Part shown: positions 10,441-50,800 of the stretch, piece after piece
Numbering within the stretch: the first letter of the stretch is position 1
Layout: every line of letters begins with the position of its first letter
Origin: Sphagnum magellanicum
Lineage: Eukaryota; Streptophyta; Sphagnopsida; Sphagnales; Sphagnaceae
Direction: 5' to 3'
NCBI GenBank assembly: GCA_021904315.1
Contig: CM038918.1
Span: 17,685,349-17,749,348 of the forward strand
Length of the DNA: 64,000 nucleotides
The notes under the pieces: generated by a model
What the model saw: only the letters and a program-made list of their open reading frames with translations
Told to the model about the DNA's origin: nothing
Databases searched by the model: none
Position numbers and translations under genes: made by a program

Positions 10441-10775
10441 TATGAACAATATACATATGTATGCATATATATAATTTTAGTACATACATTAAAATATACC
10501 CGTATGTCATTGTAGAATACCTTTAGGATGCAACTAATTTGGTGACTATTGTGACTAATGGGACATATCAACCTATTAATGAATGAAAATAAATGTAAAA
10601 TTGATGTAACCAATAGGATGAAATTTCTAATAGTTGCATCATAGTTGTGAAAATGACCAAAATAGTTGAATGTTGGTCTTGTAGTTGCAAATATTCTCAA
10701 ATCTAGTCGCAAACGACTATAAGTCGCATGTAGTCGTAAATTGACTGGTTACATTTTGGCTGATTTCTACTAGTG

Positions 10776-11882
10776 CTGGGTTGGACTTGGAGAAGGAGTA
10801 CGACAGCAGCGAGTAAGCTCCTTGCTGATTGGGAATCCCAGGGTCATGATATGGCCTACAAGATAGTTGCACTTGTGAAGACATATGATATCCCCGAAGA
10901 ACTAGTCATCAATTCTGATCAGATTGTTTTCCACATTCGGCCAAGCATAGATCAGACCTATGACGTTAAGGGGGTCAAAGATGTCAAGAGTCTGGGAAAG
11001 GATGATAAGCGTCAGATTACTTGCACGGTTAGCTCAGCAGCAAGTGGGGATTTGCTCCATCTTCAATTGATCTTCCAGGGCAAAACCACTGATGTTGTCC
11101 CTAAAGACCCTGGGGCAGTGGCAGCTAGGGCGAAGGGCTGGCATTTGACCATGTCGTCCAACCATTGGTCTAACCAGCAGACCATGAGGGAGTTCATTGA
11201 CCAGGTCATTGTGCCGTGGCATGCAAAGCAGTGTGAAGAATTGGGGCGTGCTTCGTCCTCTCAGCATTACATCTGGAACATTGATTGTTGGAAGGTGCAT
11301 ATCTCAGAGGAGTTTAGAGGGTGGCTAAAGGAGAATCATCCGCTTCTGCACCTCGTCTTTGTTCCTACCAACTGCACTAGCAAGCTGCAGGTCATCGATG
11401 TAGTTCTGCAACGCCCTTTCAAGCACCGCTTCCGCACTCACTTCAATTTGTGGCAAAGTCAGCAAGTAGCATGTTAGGTGCTCAACGGGGTGCAGTCGAA
11501 TAACATCCAGCTCCAGCTTGGGATCAAAAAGCTCAGATGCCACTTGGTAGGCTAGTTGATGGGTTCCTGGGAGGAGCTGGCAGGGCTCAAGCAGATGATC
11601 ATGAAGGGGTGGAAGAAGTGCAGGATGGGGAAGATTCACGAAGCGAAGTTCCAAGCGAAGGCCTTGTCAGAATGTCTGACAAGGGGTCTGCTGGTACTGG
11701 AAGTAGCGGAGGAGGATACGACGGCAGGGCCTGAGGGGGACATCGAAGTGCTCACGCACATGGAGCAGGCTTCATTGGCCGGTGTGATGGAAGCCTGCTT
11801 GGATGATCAGTTTGATGTTCCAAGTGATGTAGACCTAGATGGTTCTGATTCTAAGGAGGATGGATCAGATGGAGAAGATTAG
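10776..11882 (+). pseudogene. pogo-type transposase, DDE catalytic part (broken)
   Basis: Resumes after the CACTA insertion as LGWTWRRSTTAASKLL. The catalytic acidic residues are visible: NSDQ (Asp at 10917), IDCWKVH (Asp at 11283) and LQVIDV (Asp at 11397), about 37 residues between the second and third, which fits the DDE_1 (pogo/Tigger/jerky) fold. The usual Asn after the second Asp is Cys here, and also in the sister copy, so it is a family trait rather than damage. Other shared blocks: KRQITCTVSSA, LQLIFQGKTTDVVP, NHWSNQQTMREF and PTNCTSKLQ. A stop at 11475-11477 ends the main frame. A frame from about 11556 to 11882 continues with the acidic C-terminal tail seen also in the sister copy. 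Confidence 0.85.
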
Positions 11883-18751: not shown

Positions 18752-19006
18752 GGATTCAAGTTGGCGAAAACAGAACCGTGTGTTAAATTACTGGCTGAAA
18801 AAAAGAACAAAGAAAATAAAGTGTAACTTGGAAATTTATATTTTTTACAAGGTTTTCATGTAGGAGTGTTTTTTCCCCAAATTTTTGAGCTGCAAAATTT
18901 GGCGAAACTATTAAATTTTTTTAGCAAAATTAGTCCAATTTACACTAAAAAAATTCCAATTTTTTTGAGGGTAAATTGTCAGGAAAAAAACACTTGTCTA
19001 AACAAA

Positions 19007-19148
19007 GAAGTGCAATATGACATCCACATTGTTCGGAACCGAACACTTCCCCCCCTGCATCTTTTAAAAAAAGAATTATGCCTTGAGAATCTCAATGGGG
19101 CCTTGAATTTGTTTGGTTCCCAATAATGGGGATGCCATATTGCACTTC
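19007..19148. ncRNA. Pre-miRNA-like foldback (candidate; may instead be a tiny foldback element)
   Basis: Arms of 39 nt at 19007-19045 and 19110-19148, with a 64-nt loop. The left arm starts GAAGTGCAATATG and the right arm ends CATATTGCACTTC. Of 39 positions 34 pair as Watson-Crick, two more are G-U when transcribed from plus, and three are mismatches. The size and pairing fit a plant miRNA precursor. Both arms can be read as the same protein string (EVQY-I-I), so the hairpin may come from an inverted copy of coding DNA. There are no expression data, and a MITE or small foldback transposon with long terminal repeats would look the same. Confidence 0.4.
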
Positions 19149-20049
19149 TCTCTATTGGGAGTAGTTCATGGTTGGTAGTTGGTACCCTCCCTACCAATCA
19201 AACTATTTGCAACAAATAGTGTACCATTTGTTTTTTGGGGGGGGGTCAATCCAGGCTAAATGCTACCAATAACGAAACTATGATCAAGCCCAGGGTTTAA
19301 TTTTTATAAAAAAAATGTATAAATTTTGTGGAATGGAAAATTTGTCGAATTTTCCAGAAACTAGAAAAAAGTACTTGAATTTACGTTACAAAGAAAAACA
19401 ATTCCCAAAAAATCTCAATATTTTGGTAAAAAAACGTTAAAAGCTTTGTCAAAAAAAGAAACAAAAACTGATCAACCCTGGAAAATTCAAGTCTTAAGAT
19501 CATAAGAAAGTGGAAATCGATAAAAACCACTTGTAAACTGTACTAAACATACCTTTTGGAAAAATATTTGGGGTTTCATTTTGGGGGAATTATCTAAACT
19601 TATGTCTCTTTGATCTCAAGGTGCCATGAAATATACTTTTGGGTGCTTTAGTGGCTCACATATACCTTTACACTCTTGCATCATGGATGTAATTGTTGAA
19701 CTCTGTCTCTATAGAAAGAAAAGGGTCATAGGCCATAGCATTAATGTTAAAAATGTAAACAAATATATAGGGTCTATGGAATAGGCTTGCAAGGAGGGGT
19801 GGAAAAAAAGCCTTTTCAAGGTTGTTGGAGCCTTGAATTCTTTCAAGAATTTTCTTCAACACCATAGTAACTTGGCATCTTTGACACTAATTATAGTAAT
19901 TTCAAAAATGTCACAATTTTCAAAAAACATTTTATCTAAGAACACAATTTGTGGAGGAAAATACTGAAAATTCAAAAATATTCCATTTCTCAAAGTGAAA
20001 ATTGCAAAATTAATTGCAATAGTATAGGGCATGTTTGAAACACATGTTT

Positions 20050-28249: not shown

Positions 28250-31200
28250 ATAATAGTGTGAGAATGCAAGCTTACAGCAACAACAGCATCATCAGTAGCA
28301 GGAGCAATAGGAGCAACGGCAGCGGCAGTATTATTAGTCCTATGGTTGTTGGCAGGGAAGCGGGTTTTGAAGAAGGCGATTTGGAGCGGCCGAGATGGGC
28401 AGGAGACGATGTGCTTTCGCGCTTCGTCAGTGCTCTCATTGCCATCAAACCTCTCTTCAACATCATGAAGTTCGGAGCTCGTCAAGTCGTTATTAGGTTG
28501 GTTTGTTTTCAACTGCCCGATGTTTCCTTCCCTCCTTTTTGTTTGTTTTGAAAGAGCTGCTGCTACAATATTCCGCTGCCGCTCTCCTTCTTCTTCTTCT
28601 TCTTCTTCATGTGGAGGAGGAGGAGAAGAGACAGGAAGCACGTGTCAGTTTGCCAAGAAAACCCCAAGAAGTTGTTGGAATGATCTGAAATTCGAAAACT
28701 TCACAACAACAAGCATCCTTTATCCTGTTTGTGAGAGAAAGTGCAGAGTGAATGTATGAACTGTGTGTGAGAGTGCAGAACAGCAGAGAAGAAGGGGATT
28801 AACTGGAGAAAAATGGCAGACGAGGTTCTCACATCAGATGTGTATGCTGAGAAGGAGCTTCTTGAAGACAAATCACTGGTTTATCCTGACTGTAAGTGAA
28901 AGCAATTTCTCTTGACTGCACTGAGTGATGATGTGCAAAGATGTGGATTTGCCTTCCTTCTTTGAACTATGAAAGGGCAAACACATGCAAAATGCTTGTT
29001 AAGGTCCAGGCCAAAGGTCTTGACATGTGTTATACATGTTAAGCTGCAAAATTCATTTACTGCTTTGCAATTGTAGAGTGCAGTTTTGTGATGTGTTTTG
29101 CAAATGTGTTATCACACACAGTGGGATTATGCACTGCGACACAGATTTGATTGCAAGTTGCAAACTTGTCTGAAGTATTGAAGATGTTGGATGCTGCTAC
29201 TGATGTTGTCTAATGGTGGAAGTTCTGTTTCAGATTACTTGAAAGAGTTCCATGCGTATGCAGATGGCAATCTCTCTTGGAAGGTGTGTATTTGCTATCT
29301 TTTGATTAGCTATATCTCTTGGGCACTAGTATAAAAGCATGATTGGATGTTCCTGTTTGCTTCCTTGAATATGATACAAACTCAGGATGCAGGTTTTGTA
29401 TGAATTGTTTGCCTGAAATTTTTGGGAGTACCACCTTCTGAGCGAAAGCAATTTGGGAGGGATTGTGTGCTGGGATCTGAGAGAAGAAGGGCACAGAGAG
29501 GGAGATGAGGTTAAAGGTAGATGGATAGAAGGGTCTGACAAGCTGTAACAGAGTGGTGGCAGGCAGCTAGTGAGGTGGCACCAGCAACTCTTTCCATGGT
29601 GCTGCGCACTATTCCCACTGCAGAAACAGCAGCAGAAGCAGCAGAACGTGTGCGAGGAGCCTGGTTGTGGGTATGTCCATTCTAAGAAGAAGTTCTTGAG
29701 AAGACAAATTTCTGCTTTGTAAATGGACTCAATAGTGACTGTCTTTTGGGGGAACAGAAAAAAAAAATTCCTTTACTTCATCATGAAACCCAAATCCAGC
29801 TCTCATTCGGGGGGTGGGGTGGGGGGGGCGTGGGCAGTGTCTCCCACTCCCTGGGAAGAGGTAGTGATGTGGCAGAGGGTTTGGTGTTGCCACCAGATCT
29901 CATGACATTTGACCAACATGGCTGGCATTAGTGCAGTTGTCATCTATGGACACAAGATGCATCCCTGAATCTGATCAAGTGACAAGCATATTACATCTAG
30001 CATGAAAATGAATATCATGCCCGGTTTCTGTAGCAGTTTCCAGACTGCTAGAACCCTGCGAGGAATGTCCAGTGGAGGTTGACACTAATGTGCGCAGTTA
30101 CACTCAGAACTTTGAGCAAGTTGTGGAGTTTAGGTTCATTCATCAACCTTCATCTGGTCTGCGCTCAGGCCAGATTTGAAATAGCATGTGTATGTGTGGC
30201 AGGCTATAGAAGACCACCACAGGGCTCATTCCAATGGTTTGGGAGTTTCTGCAATTCTTGATGTTGGTTGTTCCACTGGCGAGAGTACACAGGCCCTTGC
30301 TGCTGGGTTTCCAGATGCCAAACTTGTGGTAGGTCTATAATGTGGGTTTATCTGCTTGATTTAGCACTCACTTCATGAATTGTTCTTGCAAAACATGTAG
30401 GAAACATGCAATATCCTTTACACAGTGCACACCTTTTTTCCAGGTCGCAATTTTCTTCCATTGACATATTCTCCAGAGACTGTGAGGTTAACTTAGGTGA
30501 GAGGTTGGCAGGGGCTGGACTTGTCACCCTACTTTCTGGCAGTGGCTCAATACATGCAGAAGAAGAGAGTGGCCTCAGGCAAACCAGGAAGTGAGAGGTC
30601 AATAAGTTGGGTGCATGCAAATGGTGAAAGCACTGGGTTACCTGCTGCCTCTTTCGACATAGTCTCTCTTGCCTTTGTGGTGAGTATCAGTTGGAAAAAT
30701 GAAAGCTGAAGGATGCTTGCAGATGTCTGGGGTTTGTTTCTTAATGTTAATCATGCTACTAAAAGAGAAACACTGTGAAATCCCTATCCAAGAAATTGTG
30801 TGTCCCCAGCCCATTTACGTCTTCAATAGCAACAGTGCAGCACAGAGGCAGCACTTTGGAAACAAGGCTAAACAACTTTTGTGAAGCTCTTTTCTCTTTT
30901 CTCTTGGCCCAGCAGCCACTCCTTTGTCATAGGATGGTGTAAACGACAGCTGAAGCCCCTCTGATATGAGATTTCTCCATCAGTGAAAGTATGGTAGTTG
31001 CTGTAACTGACATTAGGGTGGTGGTTGTGGACTGAAGATTCATGAGTGCCCTCCATATGCAATCAAAAATTTGCTGAAGGAGGCGTACAGGCTTTTGAGA
31101 CCAGGTGGCACAGTTGCTCTGACTGACAATTCGGTACGTCTCCTGAACCCTGTTCCCTGTCTGCAGATTCATTAATTGCAGCAGTTTGCTTCACCTTTGC

Positions 31201-31873
31201 AATCAAATCATGTTCACTTATGCTGTGACAAATGCAAGGTACAATAGTTGTTTTGTCTATTGCAACCCCCATGCACTGATTCATTTTTGTGTCATTTTTT
31301 GGACATTACAGCCCAAGTCAAAGATTATTCAGGTATGTTTTTGTTCCAACCACCCAGTTTCCATGTGCATTTGGCTATTTAATTGTTGCACGTGTTGCCT
31401 CCTGTCAGAGTTGCACTGCCTTTTCTGTTTGCTGCAGTCTTGACAGCAAGGATATCCTCAATCTCTATTCATGGATCAAATGCTAGGTTGTTGTTTCGCC
31501 CTTAATAAGAGATCCATTATCCTGTTGGTAGTGAAGTTTACATCCACCAAAGATAACTTGTATAGTGTTTCCAACATTTGGTTGCATTATGTACACTGAA
31601 GACAATTTGCTAGTGCCTACATACGTTTGTATGCTTACAGTGCTCATCATATTTCAAATATTTCTTGTGAACGAAATGTTTCCACTGTGCTTCTGTCTGC
31701 AGAGTTTGCCACCTGCAGTGTTTATCTTGATGAAATCAACTGAACCTCATAGTGATGAGTACTACTTGATGGACTTGGATGGGGCCATGAAGGAGATTGG
31801 TTTTATCAATGTCACCTCGGTTTTGACAGACCCACGACATCGAACCGTCACTGGAACTGTGCCTTTGAAGTAA
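28111..31873 (+). CDS. Plastid-type class I SAM-dependent methyltransferase (UbiE/COQ5-like)
   Basis: Nine exons join in phase to 412 residues: 28111-28496, 28779-28891, 29234-29283, 29563-29670, 30203-30328, 30512-30679, 31038-31133, 31312-31332, 31703-31873. Residues 1 to about 75 are Ser/Arg/Asn-rich, including a poly-Ser run coded by an AGT microsatellite, and are probably a plastid transit peptide. Next come LSRFVSALIAIKPLFNIMKF and SLVYPDYYLKEFHAY. The SAM site follows: motif I ILDVGCSTGES (about residues 237-247), GLDLSPYFLAVAQ (262-274, acidic loop for the ribose), NGESTGLPAASFDIVSLAF, HECPPYAIKNLLKEAYRLLR, PGGTVALTDNS, and the closing DPRHRTVTGTVPLK. It resembles the Arabidopsis group around At4g29590 as I remember it; the substrate is unknown to me. 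Every donor is GT and every acceptor AG. The 21-nt exon 8 codes PKSKIIQ. Confidence 0.9.
28219..28253. repeat. (AGT)n coding microsatellite
   Basis: About ten AGT triplets inside exon 1 of the methyltransferase gene. They code a serine run in the presumed transit peptide, where length change should be tolerated. Confidence 0.85.
28590..28612. repeat. (CTT)n microsatellite in methyltransferase intron 1
   Basis: A TTC/CTT run followed by a GGAGGA run. The two can pair weakly. Confidence 0.75.
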
Positions 31874-32760
31874 GACTGAAAGCTGTGTTTGCTGCAGACT
31901 TGGGTCAATTTGCACATTTGCAAACTTGTATGGTGGCAGCAGCCAGTTCATATGCTGTCGTGGTGCTATAAGACAAAACATTTGACATTTGCTATCAAAT
32001 GCTGGAGGATTGACAATGTACTTGCAAGAGCGGAAGCCAAATAGACTGCTAAAAAGGTGCCTTTCCCCCTCCCAATGAGCTCAACTGTGGGCCCTATGGA
32101 AATTAATGGAATAAGAAGAGTTTCATCGGACCACCAACAATAGATAGTATGTGCCACGACCATGTTCATACACAATGAGCAGGCTCTTGTCTTTCCAATT
32201 GTCTCTCTTCACGATTTAAAAGCAGTTCTGATTGCACTCAAACTGCAGTAAGCTTTTTTGGTTTGAAAGAGTATTCAATTTTGAAGCATTTTGCTGGTGA
32301 GAAGAACCACATGTGGGGCTTTTATTGGCCACATCTTTGCATTTACAAAACTGCACATTTGGTTTATTTCAACACAGTTAAGGAGCATTATCAAAAAAAA
32401 ATGATTTCAAAGGTTTGAAATTCTGAACTAAATGGCTACAAGAGAAAGGACTTTTTGAAAAAACTATTTGGTGAGTTGTTTATATTCACTAGGGGTGAAA
32501 ATTTCTAGCTCCAGATGCAGGTCACATGTGCAAGCAAGAAATAATCAAAATTTATCCAGATGACATTTGTAAACATTCATTACCAAAAGAAGTTATGGTA
32601 TCCTTGTCCTCCTTGTTTAAGGAACTCCATGGACTGATGACTGGTTATGTAATTCTAGCAAGAATATTGTCTCCTCCAGGCCAGATGTGAGGATTCCTGT
32701 ACCACAAAGGTGTAGTAACATCTTCATCTAAGGGCTAGCATCATCAGGAAGCTATGGGAG
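31874..32760. other. Methyltransferase 3' region, no further gene
   Basis: Probable 3' untranslated DNA followed by intergenic sequence. I see no coding frame with resemblance and no clear repeat. Confidence 0.4.
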
Positions 32761-32761
32761 G

Positions 32762-33345
32762 ATTCTCAACAAAACTAGAGTGTTGTCCAACAAAGGACGC
32801 CCTTGAAAAGGAGTTCAGCTAGTAAGTGACACAGACCATACCAAAACTGCACACATCTACAGCAGGTGAATATGCAAGACTGACATCTGATCAATCGCTC
32901 AATGCATATAAACGCCCCCAGTGCCTTCCAAAACTCAGTTCTCACAACATCATCAACATCATCCAAGCTCTCAAAAGTCCTTGAATTTAACATCACATGA
33001 TTGAGCACACATTACAGACTAAGCATCCCAGTTTTCACAACATCATCAACATCATCCAAGCTCTCAAAAGTCCTTGACTTTAACATCACATGATTGAGCA
33101 CACATTACAGACTAAGCATCCCAGTTTACACAACGTCATCAACATCATCAGAGCTCTCATAGTCCTTGACTTTGACATCACATGATTGAACACCCATTAC
33201 AGACCAAGCAGACTCTTGATATCCAAAAGAAGAGTATGAGTTTGGTTAGGGGAAAAAAGGAGGTGAAATGAGAACATTTGTGGAACCGAGGTCTTTATGT
33301 ATCAATCCACACCCGTGCAGTAGATTGATGCAGGAGTGGTGGTGA
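32762..33345 (-). pseudogene. Protein-kinase remnant with triplicated activation segment
   Basis: On the minus strand 33299-33276 reads HKDLGSTN, the kinase catalytic-loop pattern HxDLxxxN, preceded by LLHGCGLI and followed by VLIS. Further on come three units of 93-94 bp (33215-32938), each starting near QSCDVK(V/F)KD and continuing ESLDDVDDVV, in the position of the DFG/activation segment; Asp-Phe-Glu or Asp-Tyr-Glu replaces DFG. After the last unit, RTEFWKALGAF is followed, in another frame, by YSPAVDVCSFGMV (32872-32834), which fits the SDVYSFGMV helix of plant kinases. Stops and small frame changes interrupt it, including one extra T in units two and three, so it is not a working gene. 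Parts upstream of the catalytic loop were not found. Confidence 0.6.
32936..33215 (-). repeat. Three-copy 93/94-bp tandem repeat
   Basis: CACAACATCATCAACATCAT, then AGTCCTTGA, CATCACATGATTGA and CATTACAGAC recur at about 32938, 33032 and 33126. The first two copies differ at only a few positions; the third is more diverged. It duplicates the kinase-like activation segment on the minus strand. Confidence 0.85.
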
Positions 33346-33391
33346 ACTGCAGGGATATGGATTCATACACAAAGACCTCAATCCACTGCAG
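33276..33391. ncRNA. Pre-miRNA-like foldback made from kinase catalytic-loop DNA (candidate)
   Basis: Core arms of 33 nt at 33288-33320 (starts GAGGTCTTTATGTATCAATC) and 33347-33379 (ends CATACACAAAGACCTC), with a 26-nt loop; 28 of 33 positions pair. Pairing continues outward with one bulge through GTGGA near 33280 and TCCAC near 33383. The left arm, on the minus strand, reads GCGLIHKDL; the right arm, on the plus strand, reads GYGFIHKDL. Both arms are therefore copies of the same kinase code, placed head to head. From either strand the 5' arm would be antisense to kinase mRNA. Expression is unknown, and a simple inverted duplication without RNA function is the alternative. Confidence 0.45.
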
Positions 33392-33399
33392 ATGTATGC

Positions 33400-35042
33400 A
33401 AGTTCATAGCAGCAAAACGAGTGGTCAGCACGCCTTCCCTTCCCTTTCCGCGTTACCGACGCCCTTCGAATTTTTTCTTCTTCTTGCTGTCCCATGGTAC
33501 TGGAATCGATGCTATGAGAGATGGTCGCTGCTGGCGGCGTAGAGACTTGCGACTAGTACAGGTCTAGAGTCGATCAACCCGACACCTAAAGTAAAGACAG
33601 CAAGCGAAAGGTAGTGCAAGACCGAGTCTGTTTGCAAGAACGCTAGTTACGAAAACCACTGTGCAATGAAGAAAGAACCGAGAGGGTAGTACTTTGTGGA
33701 CGAGAACTCCCGCAGAAAAACACTGTGAAACTTCCTGGGGGCCTGGAAAAGTTAACATGTTGCCAGGGCCCTCCCAGAGCGCCAGTAGCAGCAGGAAATG
33801 ATTGTTTCTCATTGGCCAACTACAATGATTGGCCCAGGTGGTGAGAGTTAAATGGTCTCTCACTTTGTGCGGTCCATCTTTTCAGGTTCATGGGTAGGGA
33901 TGGAGGAAAAGCTAAACTGCGCAAGCTGGATGTGCTAAATACTGATAAAGGGCTGCTGTTGGGCATGCTCTAAGACTGGGGCATAAATGTCCTGAATCGC
34001 TTCAAATAATTTAAACTCAACTAACTAGTGGCTTGGAGAAAAAGGCTCCATATTGTGCGAAAAACAAAAAAAATTGTGTCTTTAATTTGAAAGGCGAAGA
34101 TGTTTATGTTTCGATTTGAAAGGTGAAGAAGTGTATACACTTCAATTTGAAAGGCAAAGAAGTGGACACTTCAAATTCAAGCTTTCGTTGGTCATACAAA
34201 TTTTTGCTTGGTCACTTTGTTTTTCCATTGTGCTGAATAGGCATTCATTTCAATCTCATCTAAAAGCAAAAATGGAACACAAAATGTGGAAAGTAGATTG
34301 TTGATAACAATAGGGTAGAGTCACCCATCACCAAAAACCCATGAGTGAGTGAGCATCCAAACAGTTCAAAATTTGACCTGCTAATAAACAGTGCTCACCT
34401 GATACCTGTTGGATAATACCTTATGAGCAAACAAATGGTTCTTAAAACTTGTGGTTGAGATTTTAAAACCTTCCATTCAAATATAAGGTTTTTGTGTTCA
34501 TCAGCCAGCTTCAAATCTCCAGTAGGCTATGTTAAAATATTTGCTTGTTCATTTGCCTCTTTGTGTTTGGCAATGGGTTGTCATTGGGAATTTCCACCAC
34601 CTTGTTTCATTTTTTGAAAGGCAATCATGCATGTGCACTTGTGTTTGTTGTTATAAATGGAGTCGTTTAGAATAAAGTTTTACATCCTTTGCTAGTAAGA
34701 CCGATATTCTTTGTGTATGAAATCTAGGAAGTCCAGTTATAAGATGCACTTCAGTTGCACACAGAAGCATAAGTGTGTTCACAGGAGATTGAACTTGGGA
34801 TCACTCCTACTTTGGGAGAATTTGTCTTACTTGTTTCAAACCCAAGTGTAGGTTTGGAAACTATTGTAGGGGCATCAGGTGAAGGGCTACTTAGGCCCTT
34901 TGGATCTCTTGGGCTGAAAGTGATCAGAGACTGAGTTCACACTCTTTAAAAGCTTAAGTGTTCGCCCACCAGCCTATCCACACTATGACTGTATTGCATA
35001 GTGTGAACATGTGCAGGTAGGTACTGAGTAGTGTTGAAAAGA
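33400..35042. other. Intergenic stretch, G+C-richer at 33420-33870
   Basis: The G+C-richer part has CCAAT-type boxes (attggccaac, attggccc, near 33812-33836) and minus-strand open frames at 33564-33863 and 33295-33495. The second starts MGQQEEEKIRRASV and could be a leader exon of the decayed kinase, but nothing supports it beyond position. From 33900 on I see no gene; a small tandem repeat at 34084-34180 is listed separately. Confidence 0.35.
34084..34180. repeat. Three-copy 31-32-bp repeat with palindrome
   Basis: ATTTGAAAGGCGAAGA(AG)TG recurs at about 34084, 34116 and 34147. The second copy contains the perfect 16-bp palindrome GAAGTGTATACACTTC. Confidence 0.7.
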
Positions 35043-47835: not shown

Positions 47836-50800
47836 CCGTAGCGGCAAGGGAATTCATCTTTTAATAATTATTTCAGGCCAAGGAGAAAAACTTGAAACTA
47901 AATTGGGCCTGTAGGGAGAAATGGAGAAATGAAGAAATTAAATCTGTTGTGACGCAGGAGAAATTGTGAGAAATTGCCAAAAAATCCGATCCGGTACCAG
48001 CGTTGCTACCTGTAGGCTAAAAGCGGCGGCGACCACCGCACGGCAACCGGCCGCACTGTTAGGCCCACTGTGCATGTGCGCAGCCTGCTAAGCTGAGCTG
48101 AGCTGAGCGGGAGTTGACCTGAACTTGATCATCATGCACATTGAATAAGCACAAGGACCTACGGAGCTATATTCGTCCATGTTTGCATGACGCATTCATT
48201 CTGTCTATTCGATATTCAATTATTGTAATAGTAATACAATCAGGGGCCCTTGATCCGTCATATGAATCATAAAGACATCTTGATTAAGCGTTTAGATGTG
48301 CCAATACGTCAAATTGAACATACCGTAGTGTTAAAAAGGAAGTAGGTATGTAGATCATGATAATGACATGATCCATGGCTGTATCATCAGTCGATGCATT
48401 GCTAGCCAAAGCATCCTGGATATATTGATCACCTTTATTGAATCACACAGCACATACGGTATTATGCAAGCAATCAGGAAATGTAATTGACTTGAGCATG
48501 TAGCTCGGATCAATAGGTACAGCTTATAGCAAGTCAGAAGAAAATATCATCTACCCTACGTCATTAAGGTCTGCCAGGTTTTCTAGCTCTTCCAACTCTG
48601 CCACTAACTCATCATCTTGCCGGTTCAAAGATCTGAAAACTTCGAGCGTGTGTTCCTCCTCCAAGCAAGCACTCATCACATCCTGCACCGATGCCACTAA
48701 CGAAATTTCCTCGATGCCTGCGCTCCTAAAAGCCCCACTCTCTAGCTCATCCTCTGTGACTTCAGGTTCATCCCCAAGGTTTTCCAACTCCGCAAGCAGA
48801 CCCCTTTGCAGGCATTGCCCCATGGCTGCATCTTGGAAGCAGGGAATGTGAATGCTGCCCAGTCTGCACAAGGCCCAACCTTTTTGGATCATCTCCACTT
48901 GCTCGCAAAGCTCGCCCCATGACAATAGGAACCAACCAATAAGTAACTCGTGCAACTTCTTGATTCCTACTTGCAGCTCTACATCTTTAGGTCTTACCCC
49001 TTCAACAAGTTGCGAAGCAACCAACTCACTCTGCCACTTCTCAAATTGCTTATGAAAACCATGCTTGAAAGGTCTCTACAACACTACATCCGCTGGTTGG
49101 AGCTTGCTTGTGCAGTTTGCAGCCACATAAAGATAGTGGACGAGGGGGTGGTTTTCCTTAAGCCGGTTTCGGAACTCCTCCGACGTGTGAACTTTCCAGC
49201 AATCTATGAGCTACACCATCTTCTGCTTGGAAGAATCCAACCCCAGCTCCTTGCACTTCTCGACGCGCCACGGGTCCAAGACCTTTTCCACAAACCGCTT
49301 CATGGTGGTTTGATTTGACCAGTGATTCTCCGAGTTAGTCAAATCCCACCCCTTCCTGACAGCTTCCCTGGCTTCAACATGGTTTGGTACCACCGCTGTG
49401 GTCTTCCCCTGGAAAATGAGCTGCAATGGAAGCATGCTACCATTGGAAGCTGAGCTGACCATCCCCGTTATTTGCCTCTTCTCGTCCTTTCTTAAACTTC
49501 GAATAGCCTTCACTCCCTTGGTTTCATAAGTCTGTTTTGCTACGGGTCACACGTAGATGGCAGTCTGATCAGAATTAACAACCAGCTCAGGGGGGATGTT
49601 GTGCAACTTGCAAAGGGCAGCAACCATGTACGTTGTCTCATCACCTTGCTTCTCCCAGTCTTCTGGGAGCTTGCTCGCTGCTGTGGTGACCCGCCTCCAC
49701 GTCCACCCCAGGTGCTTTCGGACAAAGGCATTCCCAAAGGTCTTTGACACCGAGAACTTGACATCTTCCCCGCGCTTGCCCGTCACCATTCGCTGAAACA
49801 TCTCAGGGGTAGATTGCTAGATGCACCCCTGCATGATTCCCTGGATGATCCCATCGTCCAATGGCTGCCCAACATCCCTCACACCCTTGAGCGTCTTGCA
49901 GACCAGCTCAAATGTTTAAGGGAATTTTGTGAAAATCCCCGTCGGTCTAGGCTTGTGGCTAGCTTTCCTCGCATTCTGCAGTGCAATGCAGTCTGCGACC
50001 TTGCGTTTCAGGACAAAGACCCCCTCTTCATTTTTCTCAAACCAGCCTTTCAGCGTTTGGACAGTTAGCTTGTCAAAAGGGCTGCCTAATCGACCTGGCT
50101 TCTTGTTGTGTTGAAGGGAAAAGAGAGCATCATAGAGGTTTCTAGGATGCTTCTTGACTGCAGCAAAGATGAAGTTCCAGAGATCCGGCACAAACCTATT
50201 GGTGTAAGGACCCCTCTTCTTCTTGGCAGGTGGTTCCCCACCCCCATCTTCTAGATTCCCTTCCTTTCCTTCCTGTCCTACAAGAACTGCCTGAGCCTGC
50301 CTGACTTTTTTTGGTCTGCTAACAGGCCTTTTGGATGCAAGCCTTTTCGCTTCAGCAGCTGCCTCAGCCTCCTTCTTGCGAGCCAATCTAGCATTTTCCT
50401 CATCACGCCACTTTGCTAGAGCAGACTTTCTATTAGCAGCCTTTTCTTCTTCAGACCTCTTATCCATAAAAAAGAATCGGGTGATCGTGGCAACTTTCAC
50501 CCCTGACGCCATAACGCCTGGCCCTAATGCCTCTTCTTGCAATAGCTCTTCTGCTCTGACTCTGAGGTCAAGCCATGCCAGAGGAGCTTGAAGTTGAACT
50601 CTGGAATGACCAGAGTGACCCAATGTTCAGACTCAGAGCTTGTGTCACTGGTTCCTTGGATTGAGTCATTCTTTGAAGGGGCTTCCCTCCAAAAGGGCAT
50701 CATCTCCACCGTCTATCGGAGCCTGCTCATTATCGGACGGCATTTAGTACGGTACCTACCAGCCACAATGCGGTGTATACCTAGAAATTGTTTCACAACG

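Follow-up and report, generated by a model that had tools for sequence, protein, structure and literature searches.

A foldback built from kinase catalytic-loop code in the moss Sphagnum magellanicum is a candidate young MIRNA gene

A foldback lies between the remains of a kinase gene

The DNA analyzed here (the window) is a stretch of 64,000 nucleotides of the Sphagnum magellanicum genome, C12:17685349-17749348, and the genome searched comprises 438,994,042 bases in 31 contigs. Near the middle of the window lies a short foldback flanked by pieces of a protein kinase gene, which on the minus strand appear in the order kinase 5' end with start codon, inverted catalytic loop, short loop, sense catalytic loop, and decayed kinase. 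The features of this locus are, from its upstream end:

33688..33975, unstranded: dispersed repeat of ca. 287 nt with at least 45 matches, its own included (40 of 348 candidates scored)
33385..33687 (303 bases), minus: kinase 5' end, now frameshifted and CpG-rich, collinear with kinase copy L034 550-819
33276..33391, minus: foldback, best fold as minus-strand RNA with 39 pairs and a 24-nt loop
33344..33381, plus: right arm, an inverted catalytic-loop copy (LQGYGFIHKDL), 92% over 38 nt to C8 copies L005, L006, and L008
33361..33381, minus: candidate 21-nt small RNA UUGAGGUCUUUGUGUAUGAAU in its probable register, duplex with 1 unpaired base and 3 G:U pairs
33322..33345, minus: terminal loop with the junction of two kinase fragments inside (inverted-repeat detection and fold)
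33261..33335, minus: left arm and continuation, sense catalytic loop of the decayed kinase SCINLLHGCGLIHKDLGSTNVLISP (tblastn 64% over 25 aa, E 8e-6)
32936..33213, minus: three head-to-tail copies of ca. 93 nt with activation-segment code (KDYESSDDV; repeat detection, translation, and tblastn)
32689..32954, minus: C-lobe of the decayed kinase with stops and frameshifts, 70-74% to two C6 relatives (best E 8e-27)

The foldback itself, already recognized in a preliminary description made from the sequence, has arms of 34 nt each (33288-33321 and 33346-33379) that are 85% complementary and separated by 24 nt, not by the 26 nt given there. As minus-strand RNA it folds at -59.7 kcal/mol, far below shuffled controls (-27.2 +/- 3.7; z -8.9), into a stem of 39 pairs that include 5 G:U and are interrupted by 2 mismatches and 1 single-base bulge, and this hairpin is kept in folding contexts of 191, 301, and 401 nt. 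Plus-strand RNA folds at -47.4 kcal/mol (z -5.5), and none of 200 shuffles matched the fold energy of either strand. The claim that both arms are kinase catalytic-loop code also holds, with HGCGLIHKDLGSTNVLIS read on the minus strand and LQGYGFIHKDLN on the plus strand: with 31 kinase copies from the genome as queries, a search of the window found the right arm at E 1.9e-9 and the left arm, which is 91% identical over 34 nt to the copy at C8:14915579 (L012), at E 2.8e-7. Inverted repeats of comparable quality number 2 in the 64-kb window by one criterion; a repeat of such quality is ordinary in itself, but the kinase identity of its arms is beyond chance.

Plant MIRNA foldbacks are shorter than 300 nt, and their miRNA/miRNA* duplexes contain no more than 5 mismatched bases and few bulged ones. 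The locus fits this description, with a foldback of 116 nt and a 21-nt duplex at 33381 that has 1 unpaired base and 3 G:U pairs. A known RNA family is ruled out by an Rfam search of 33000-33700, in which nothing reached its gathering score (best MIR5565, 26.6 bits versus 80); this absence is not disqualifying because it is expected of a young MIRNA gene. An origin of the hairpin from a mobile element was likewise rejected, since a genome search found no second copy of the hairpin and the dispersed repeat is merely its neighbor at 33688-33975. A promoter scan of the bacterial type, which is not suited to plant DNA, gave nothing, and the left-arm pattern had no match in prokaryote genomes.

The foldback arose within one kinase gene

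Upstream of the hairpin on the minus strand, the kinase 5' end comprises ca. 168 nt before the start codon (33493-33495) followed by ca. 34 codons. Compared with L034, the stretch 33385-33687 is 85% identical at 252 aligned positions without gaps and 66% over 303 columns (BLAST), and ten other kinase copies reach 81-83% at aligned positions. The 13 rows of this comparison represent 11 copies, with L004 and L039 being one locus, and L052 was left out with 63 aligned positions on the wrong strand. On the other side, the decayed kinase that had been described beside the hairpin could be located piece by piece on the minus strand, with its catalytic loop at 33335-33261, its activation segment at 33178-33140, and its C-lobe at 32954-32689. 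A coding exon at 33298-33495 of the minus strand was considered and rejected: it has no Pfam match and its genome relative stands at a chance-level E of 2 only, and the stretch is the frameshifted start of the kinase.

In 11 other kinase copies, the 5' stretch is separated from the HKDL site by 681-1228 nt, and this interval is missing here, with the inverted catalytic loop in its place. The joint reads CTGCAGTGG, a sequence common to L021 and L038 (2 of 7 copies) through GTGG, and the antisense loop starts at 33381; the 7-nt sequence CTGCAGT is common to both ends of the inverted piece. Because of the gene order and the missing 681-1228 nt, it is strongly supported that the foldback arose inside a single kinase gene by deletion and inverted duplication. 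One rearrangement could have deleted the N-terminal tail and N-lobe and added a short inverted copy of the catalytic loop, and template switching may have made both changes. Template-switch mutations make hairpins according to a report on them (PMC8794818), where a reverse-complement copy of a nearby segment can likewise arise in one event; the difference is that here, the copy is joined with a deletion of 0.7-1.2 kb, and template switching is our proposal for how.

The upstream homology to kinases stops at 33687, where the dispersed repeat begins, and was not found again from there to 36000. This upstream DNA is conserved among the 7 kinase copies compared, and the dispersed repeat (33688-33975) occupies its place here.

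The antisense arm matches a large kinase family

A protein search of the genome with a C8 copy gave at least 174 matched stretches (134 of 558 candidates scored), a count in which pieces of one gene are counted apart and the weakest matches (ca. 30% identical) are probably other kinases. Close relatives stand in tandem at C8:14.91-15.16 Mb, and more groups lie on C1, C4, C5, C13, C18, and elsewhere. Four long kinase frames contain protein kinase domains and nothing else in Pfam, and the three C8 copies examined carry HGCGFIHKDLKASNILL as well as DYE at the position of the usual DFG (as in GDYESSDDVVGTGFFRAPEV). Besides DYE for DFG, the C8 family displays repeated acidic linker units. When one kinase copy was searched against solved structures, the nearest chains by sequence were those of RIPK1 (best E 4.6e-16), and mixed-lineage kinase domain-like proteins were among the next-nearest.

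Mosses also have PK-NBS-LRR (PNL) genes, as described in PMC3352924. Among the matches listed of both domains, read by eye, no NB-ARC match lay within 60 kb of a kinase match, and the kinase family therefore does not look like these genes. For the copies tested, an assignment to PK-NBS-LRR genes is ruled out by Pfam (4 frames) together with the distance of the listed NB-ARC matches.

The 23-mer at 33359-33381 of the right arm occurs exactly at 4 other places in the genome, all of them C8 kinase copies, of which 3 have no stop in the matched kinase domain and 1 has a single TAG. Fifteen further sites differ by one mismatch, and 45 genomic sites including its own lie within 3 mismatches, as opposed to 1 for the reversed pattern. 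The surroundings of all 45 were read: apart from C12:19297241, the other sites (43 of 44) are inside kinase-family sequence, part of it decayed. None of the other 44 has an inverted partner nearby, with 13 of them read for only ca. 270 nt to each side. We scored complementarity with our own implementation of a simple scheme (mismatch 1, G:U 0.5, doubled at positions 2-13). By this measure, the 21-mer starting at 33381 scores 0 at the 4 exact C8 sites; among all 44 other sites, 33 score no more than 2 and every one no more than 4.

On minus-strand RNA, the right arm would be the 5' arm and antisense to kinase mRNAs. The preliminary description had likewise predicted a 5' arm antisense to the HxDL code of kinases and placed it in the left arm; on the minus strand, however, the antisense arm is the right one (33361-33381). 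The proposed small-RNA source at 33288-33310 is less likely because the minus strand folds better and the right arm matches kinases exactly.

As Allen and colleagues reportedly described in 2004, plant MIRNA genes can originate when their target gene undergoes inverted duplication. What we find resembles such genes in that both arms come from one family of putative targets, of which genes with matching sites are present, in that founder remains persist at the locus, and in that the homology of both arms to kinases exceeds the mature region (92% over 38 nt for the right arm; 91% over 34 nt for the left, with kinase homology onward to 32689). It differs in that the homology on the antisense side is only ca. 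38 nt long, in that the hairpin sits between the 5' end and the C-lobe of its founder gene, and in being known from DNA alone. Some miRNA genes of Arabidopsis and rice overlap adjacent inverted pseudogenes, in part with paralogous parents, and in one case the parent gene is the target (PMC3237417); those are annotated miRNAs, whereas ours is a candidate in a moss. Predicted miRNA targets of Physcomitrella include a putative protein kinase (PMC1838911), and in the accessible part of PMC5569507, Sphagnum is named for missing DCL2 and otherwise only in the reference list. No title among the matches listed in a literature search concerned this locus or small RNAs from these kinases; the search mostly leaves out subscription journals and is no proof of absence.

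Signs of constraint and decay

Copies for decay tests were chosen by a protein-likeness search (30 loci, of which 26 had a usable frame and 23 were distinct, with 22 long enough for the body), the query of which was a kinase copy that the right arm had led to. These tests replaced earlier ones with copies chosen by right-arm likeness, since such a choice favors the right arm. At positions conserved in 100, 90, and 80% of kinase copies, the decayed kinase body has changed at 14 of 62, 31 of 121, and 38 of 150 positions (i.e., a decay of ca. 23-26%), and the sense arm has decayed like the body (2/15, 5/22, and 7/28). In contrast, the 23-nt antisense core has no change (0/11, 0/14, and 0/17; Fisher p versus body 0.08, 0.02, and 0.01). 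Over the whole right arm, the contrast is weaker (0/15, 3/22, and 3/28; p 0.03, 0.17, and 0.07). When the right arm is aligned with 3 of the 4 exact C8 copies, the core is free of mismatches and 3 fall in the 15 nt that precede it (p 0.054).

The two arms agree at 29 of 34 positions, more than expected for two neutral copies (p 0.0085, 0.0025, and 0.0005 at 20, 22.6, and 25.6% decay). Of the 5 differences between the gap-free 34-nt arms, 3 are transitions, and all 3 are compatible with G:U pairing on the minus strand and none on the plus strand, for which the chance is 1 in 8. These constraint tests are small, their p-values modest and uncorrected, and the core was chosen after the data had been seen and is thus partly post hoc. 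Furthermore, a later origin of the right arm, with the hairpin forming after gene death, or conversion between the arms could explain both the decay and the likeness results. The target codons show no extra synonymous conservation, with a mean codon homozygosity of 0.71 versus 0.63 elsewhere (p 0.16; 23 copies, 6 testable columns among the 8 of the motif, and a total of 127 columns).

CpG content divides the locus as well. Observed/expected CpG is 0.15 in the body and 0.32 in the hairpin but 1.02-1.05 in the 5' end, compared with 0.61-0.80 in the body and 0.53-0.73 in the 5' end of 11 other kinase copies. The CpG-rich stretch at 33392-33690 is sharply bounded (1.05 versus neighbors of 0.32 and 0.30) and is one of 15 stretches in the window that pass a simple CpG-rich cut, with a window median of 0.25. 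On account of this composition, the 5' region would seem to have been kept unmethylated while the body was methylated.

A young MIRNA gene, an inert relic, or another source of small RNAs

The evidence favors a young MIRNA-like gene acting on kinases, without proving it. The founder would have been a member of a large, tandemly amplified kinase family, and the resulting hairpin gene would have kept its 5' end. Transcription of the minus strand could start from this remaining 5' region, a Dicer-like enzyme would cut the 39-pair stem, and the 5' arm would yield an RNA of 20-22 nt (ca. 33381-33361) with which Argonaute would find the HKDL codons in the mRNAs of living kinases. For C8 kinase mRNAs, the predicted cut lies within GGATTCATACACAAAGACCTCAA, where the mRNA faces small-RNA positions 10-11, and the family would be damped at its best conserved site. 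That a moss-kinase founder was rearranged in this way into a hairpin RNA gene acting on kinases, i.e., a young MIRNA gene or nearly so, is the reading to which we lean tentatively. The model of birth by inverted duplication given in the preliminary description is thus partly supported: the origin is strongly supported and has been sharpened by the founder's 5' end directly upstream on the same strand, while a young small-RNA role is favored and the locus is a candidate for a working MIRNA gene.

Several observations point to such a gene. The 5' end, inverted loop, sense loop, and kinase remnant are collinear on one strand, and the strand predicted by this gene order is also the better-folding one. 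The antisense core is unchanged while body and sense arm have decayed, the arms are alike at 29 of 34 positions with all 3 transitions compatible with the minus strand, CpG has been kept at the 5' end (1.02 versus 0.15 in the body), and all but one of the 44 other sites fall within kinase sequence. However, only ca. 168 nt before the start codon are left with a dispersed repeat upstream, the target codons lack extra synonymous conservation (p 0.16), the decay contrast weakens over the whole right arm, and none of the other 44 sites has a comparable hairpin. Some of these points would sit as well with a dead kinase copy that happens to contain an inverted duplication and whose hairpin RNA is never made or stays idle, a serious contender that we regard as distinctly possible. 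Body decay of ca. 23-26% with stops and frameshifts, the replacement of the upstream region by a dispersed repeat, and the absence of synonymous conservation at the target sites are what such an inert relic would display, and inverted repeats as good as this one are common (the 64-kb window has 2). What speaks against it is again the undecayed antisense core next to a decaying body and sense arm, the CpG retained at the 5' end, and the strand-compatible transitions, albeit with 3 of 3 only.

It is also conceivable, if unlikely, that the locus is an inverted-repeat source of siRNAs, whose imprecisely diced products guide DNA methylation or silence kinase copies broadly. The stem is long and near-perfect, body and hairpin are CpG-poor (0.15 and 0.32) as methylated DNA would become, and in Physcomitrella, small RNAs from inverted repeats range continuously from precise miRNAs to repeats with chaotic processing (PMC2600652). 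Yet the loss of CpG ends at the 5' end of the unit. Transcription of the plus strand, giving an antisense RNA from the left arm (33288-33310), is highly improbable. Although plus-strand RNA folds too (z -5.5) with a 5' arm that is likewise antisense, this fold is 12 kcal/mol weaker and the transitions break its pairs. Moreover, none of the 31 kinase copies compared comes closer to the left arm than 3 mismatches in 34 nt, the exact 21 letters of this arm occur at none of the 45 sites in the match set of the right-arm 23-mer, and no kinase 5' end was found on the plus strand.

If small RNAs were found, the locus would be a microRNA gene near its birth of which the founder's 5' end, the joint, and the living targets are readable in one genome, and the step from dead gene to regulator would become directly testable. 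To our knowledge, few microRNA genes caught near birth are known from mosses. A role of this kind would also suggest that small-RNA brakes arise from within amplified kinase families, as they do in NBS-LRR families. MicroRNAs of the miR482/miR2118 type control NBS-LRR genes; similar to them, one small RNA would hit the best conserved codons of a big tandem family, with the difference that the target here is the catalytic loop of kinases.

A second kinase-derived foldback and other features of the window

Kinase-derived foldbacks are also present in four decayed C8 copies (C8:14.93-15.10 Mb; L043, L044, and L057 are the same places as these), observed in an inverted-repeat scan of other loci of at least 2.5 kb (248,707 bases with overlaps counted more than once, AT-rich places dropped):

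L014 1014-1144: second foldback
L017 980-1136: second foldback
L033 965-1136: second foldback
L045 1335-1431: second foldback

In this second foldback, antisense copies of linker code (DPSGVETGVNEEDE in L004) precede a sense copy leading into the kinase domain, and the linker code in all four copies carries a stop. Main stems comprise ca. 41-59 pairs, with z of ca. -11 in the two tested. A 21-mer from the L017 arm has 28 sites within one mismatch among 20 kinase loci (some overlapping), versus 0 to 2 for the other three arms. With different upstream DNA and few CpG, it is a separate event from the hairpin at 33276-33391. Inverted repeats in L041 and L067 contain no kinase code by eye.

Taken further, dead members of the kinase family might repeatedly become hairpin RNA genes by which living copies are silenced, with the catalytic loop as the target here and, independently, linker code as the target in an ancestor of the four decayed C8 copies. 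The moss kinase array would thereby be checked in a way similar to the control of NBS-LRR arrays by seed-plant microRNAs, a generalization that we consider rather unlikely at this point.

Elsewhere in the window, an inverted repeat at 19006-19149 has arms of 40 nt that are 88% complementary and 64 nt apart. A methyltransferase-like stretch at 30497-31873 of the plus strand lies ca. 1.4 kb before the hairpin; Methyltransf_11 passes its cut-off at 30497-30709, and a final exon without a Pfam match may, by eye, extend to near 31873. The reading frames at 10764-11477 and 49211-49546, which lie on opposite strands, are alike and of the KDEKRQITGMVSSAS type, and by eye they are probably remnants of transposases.
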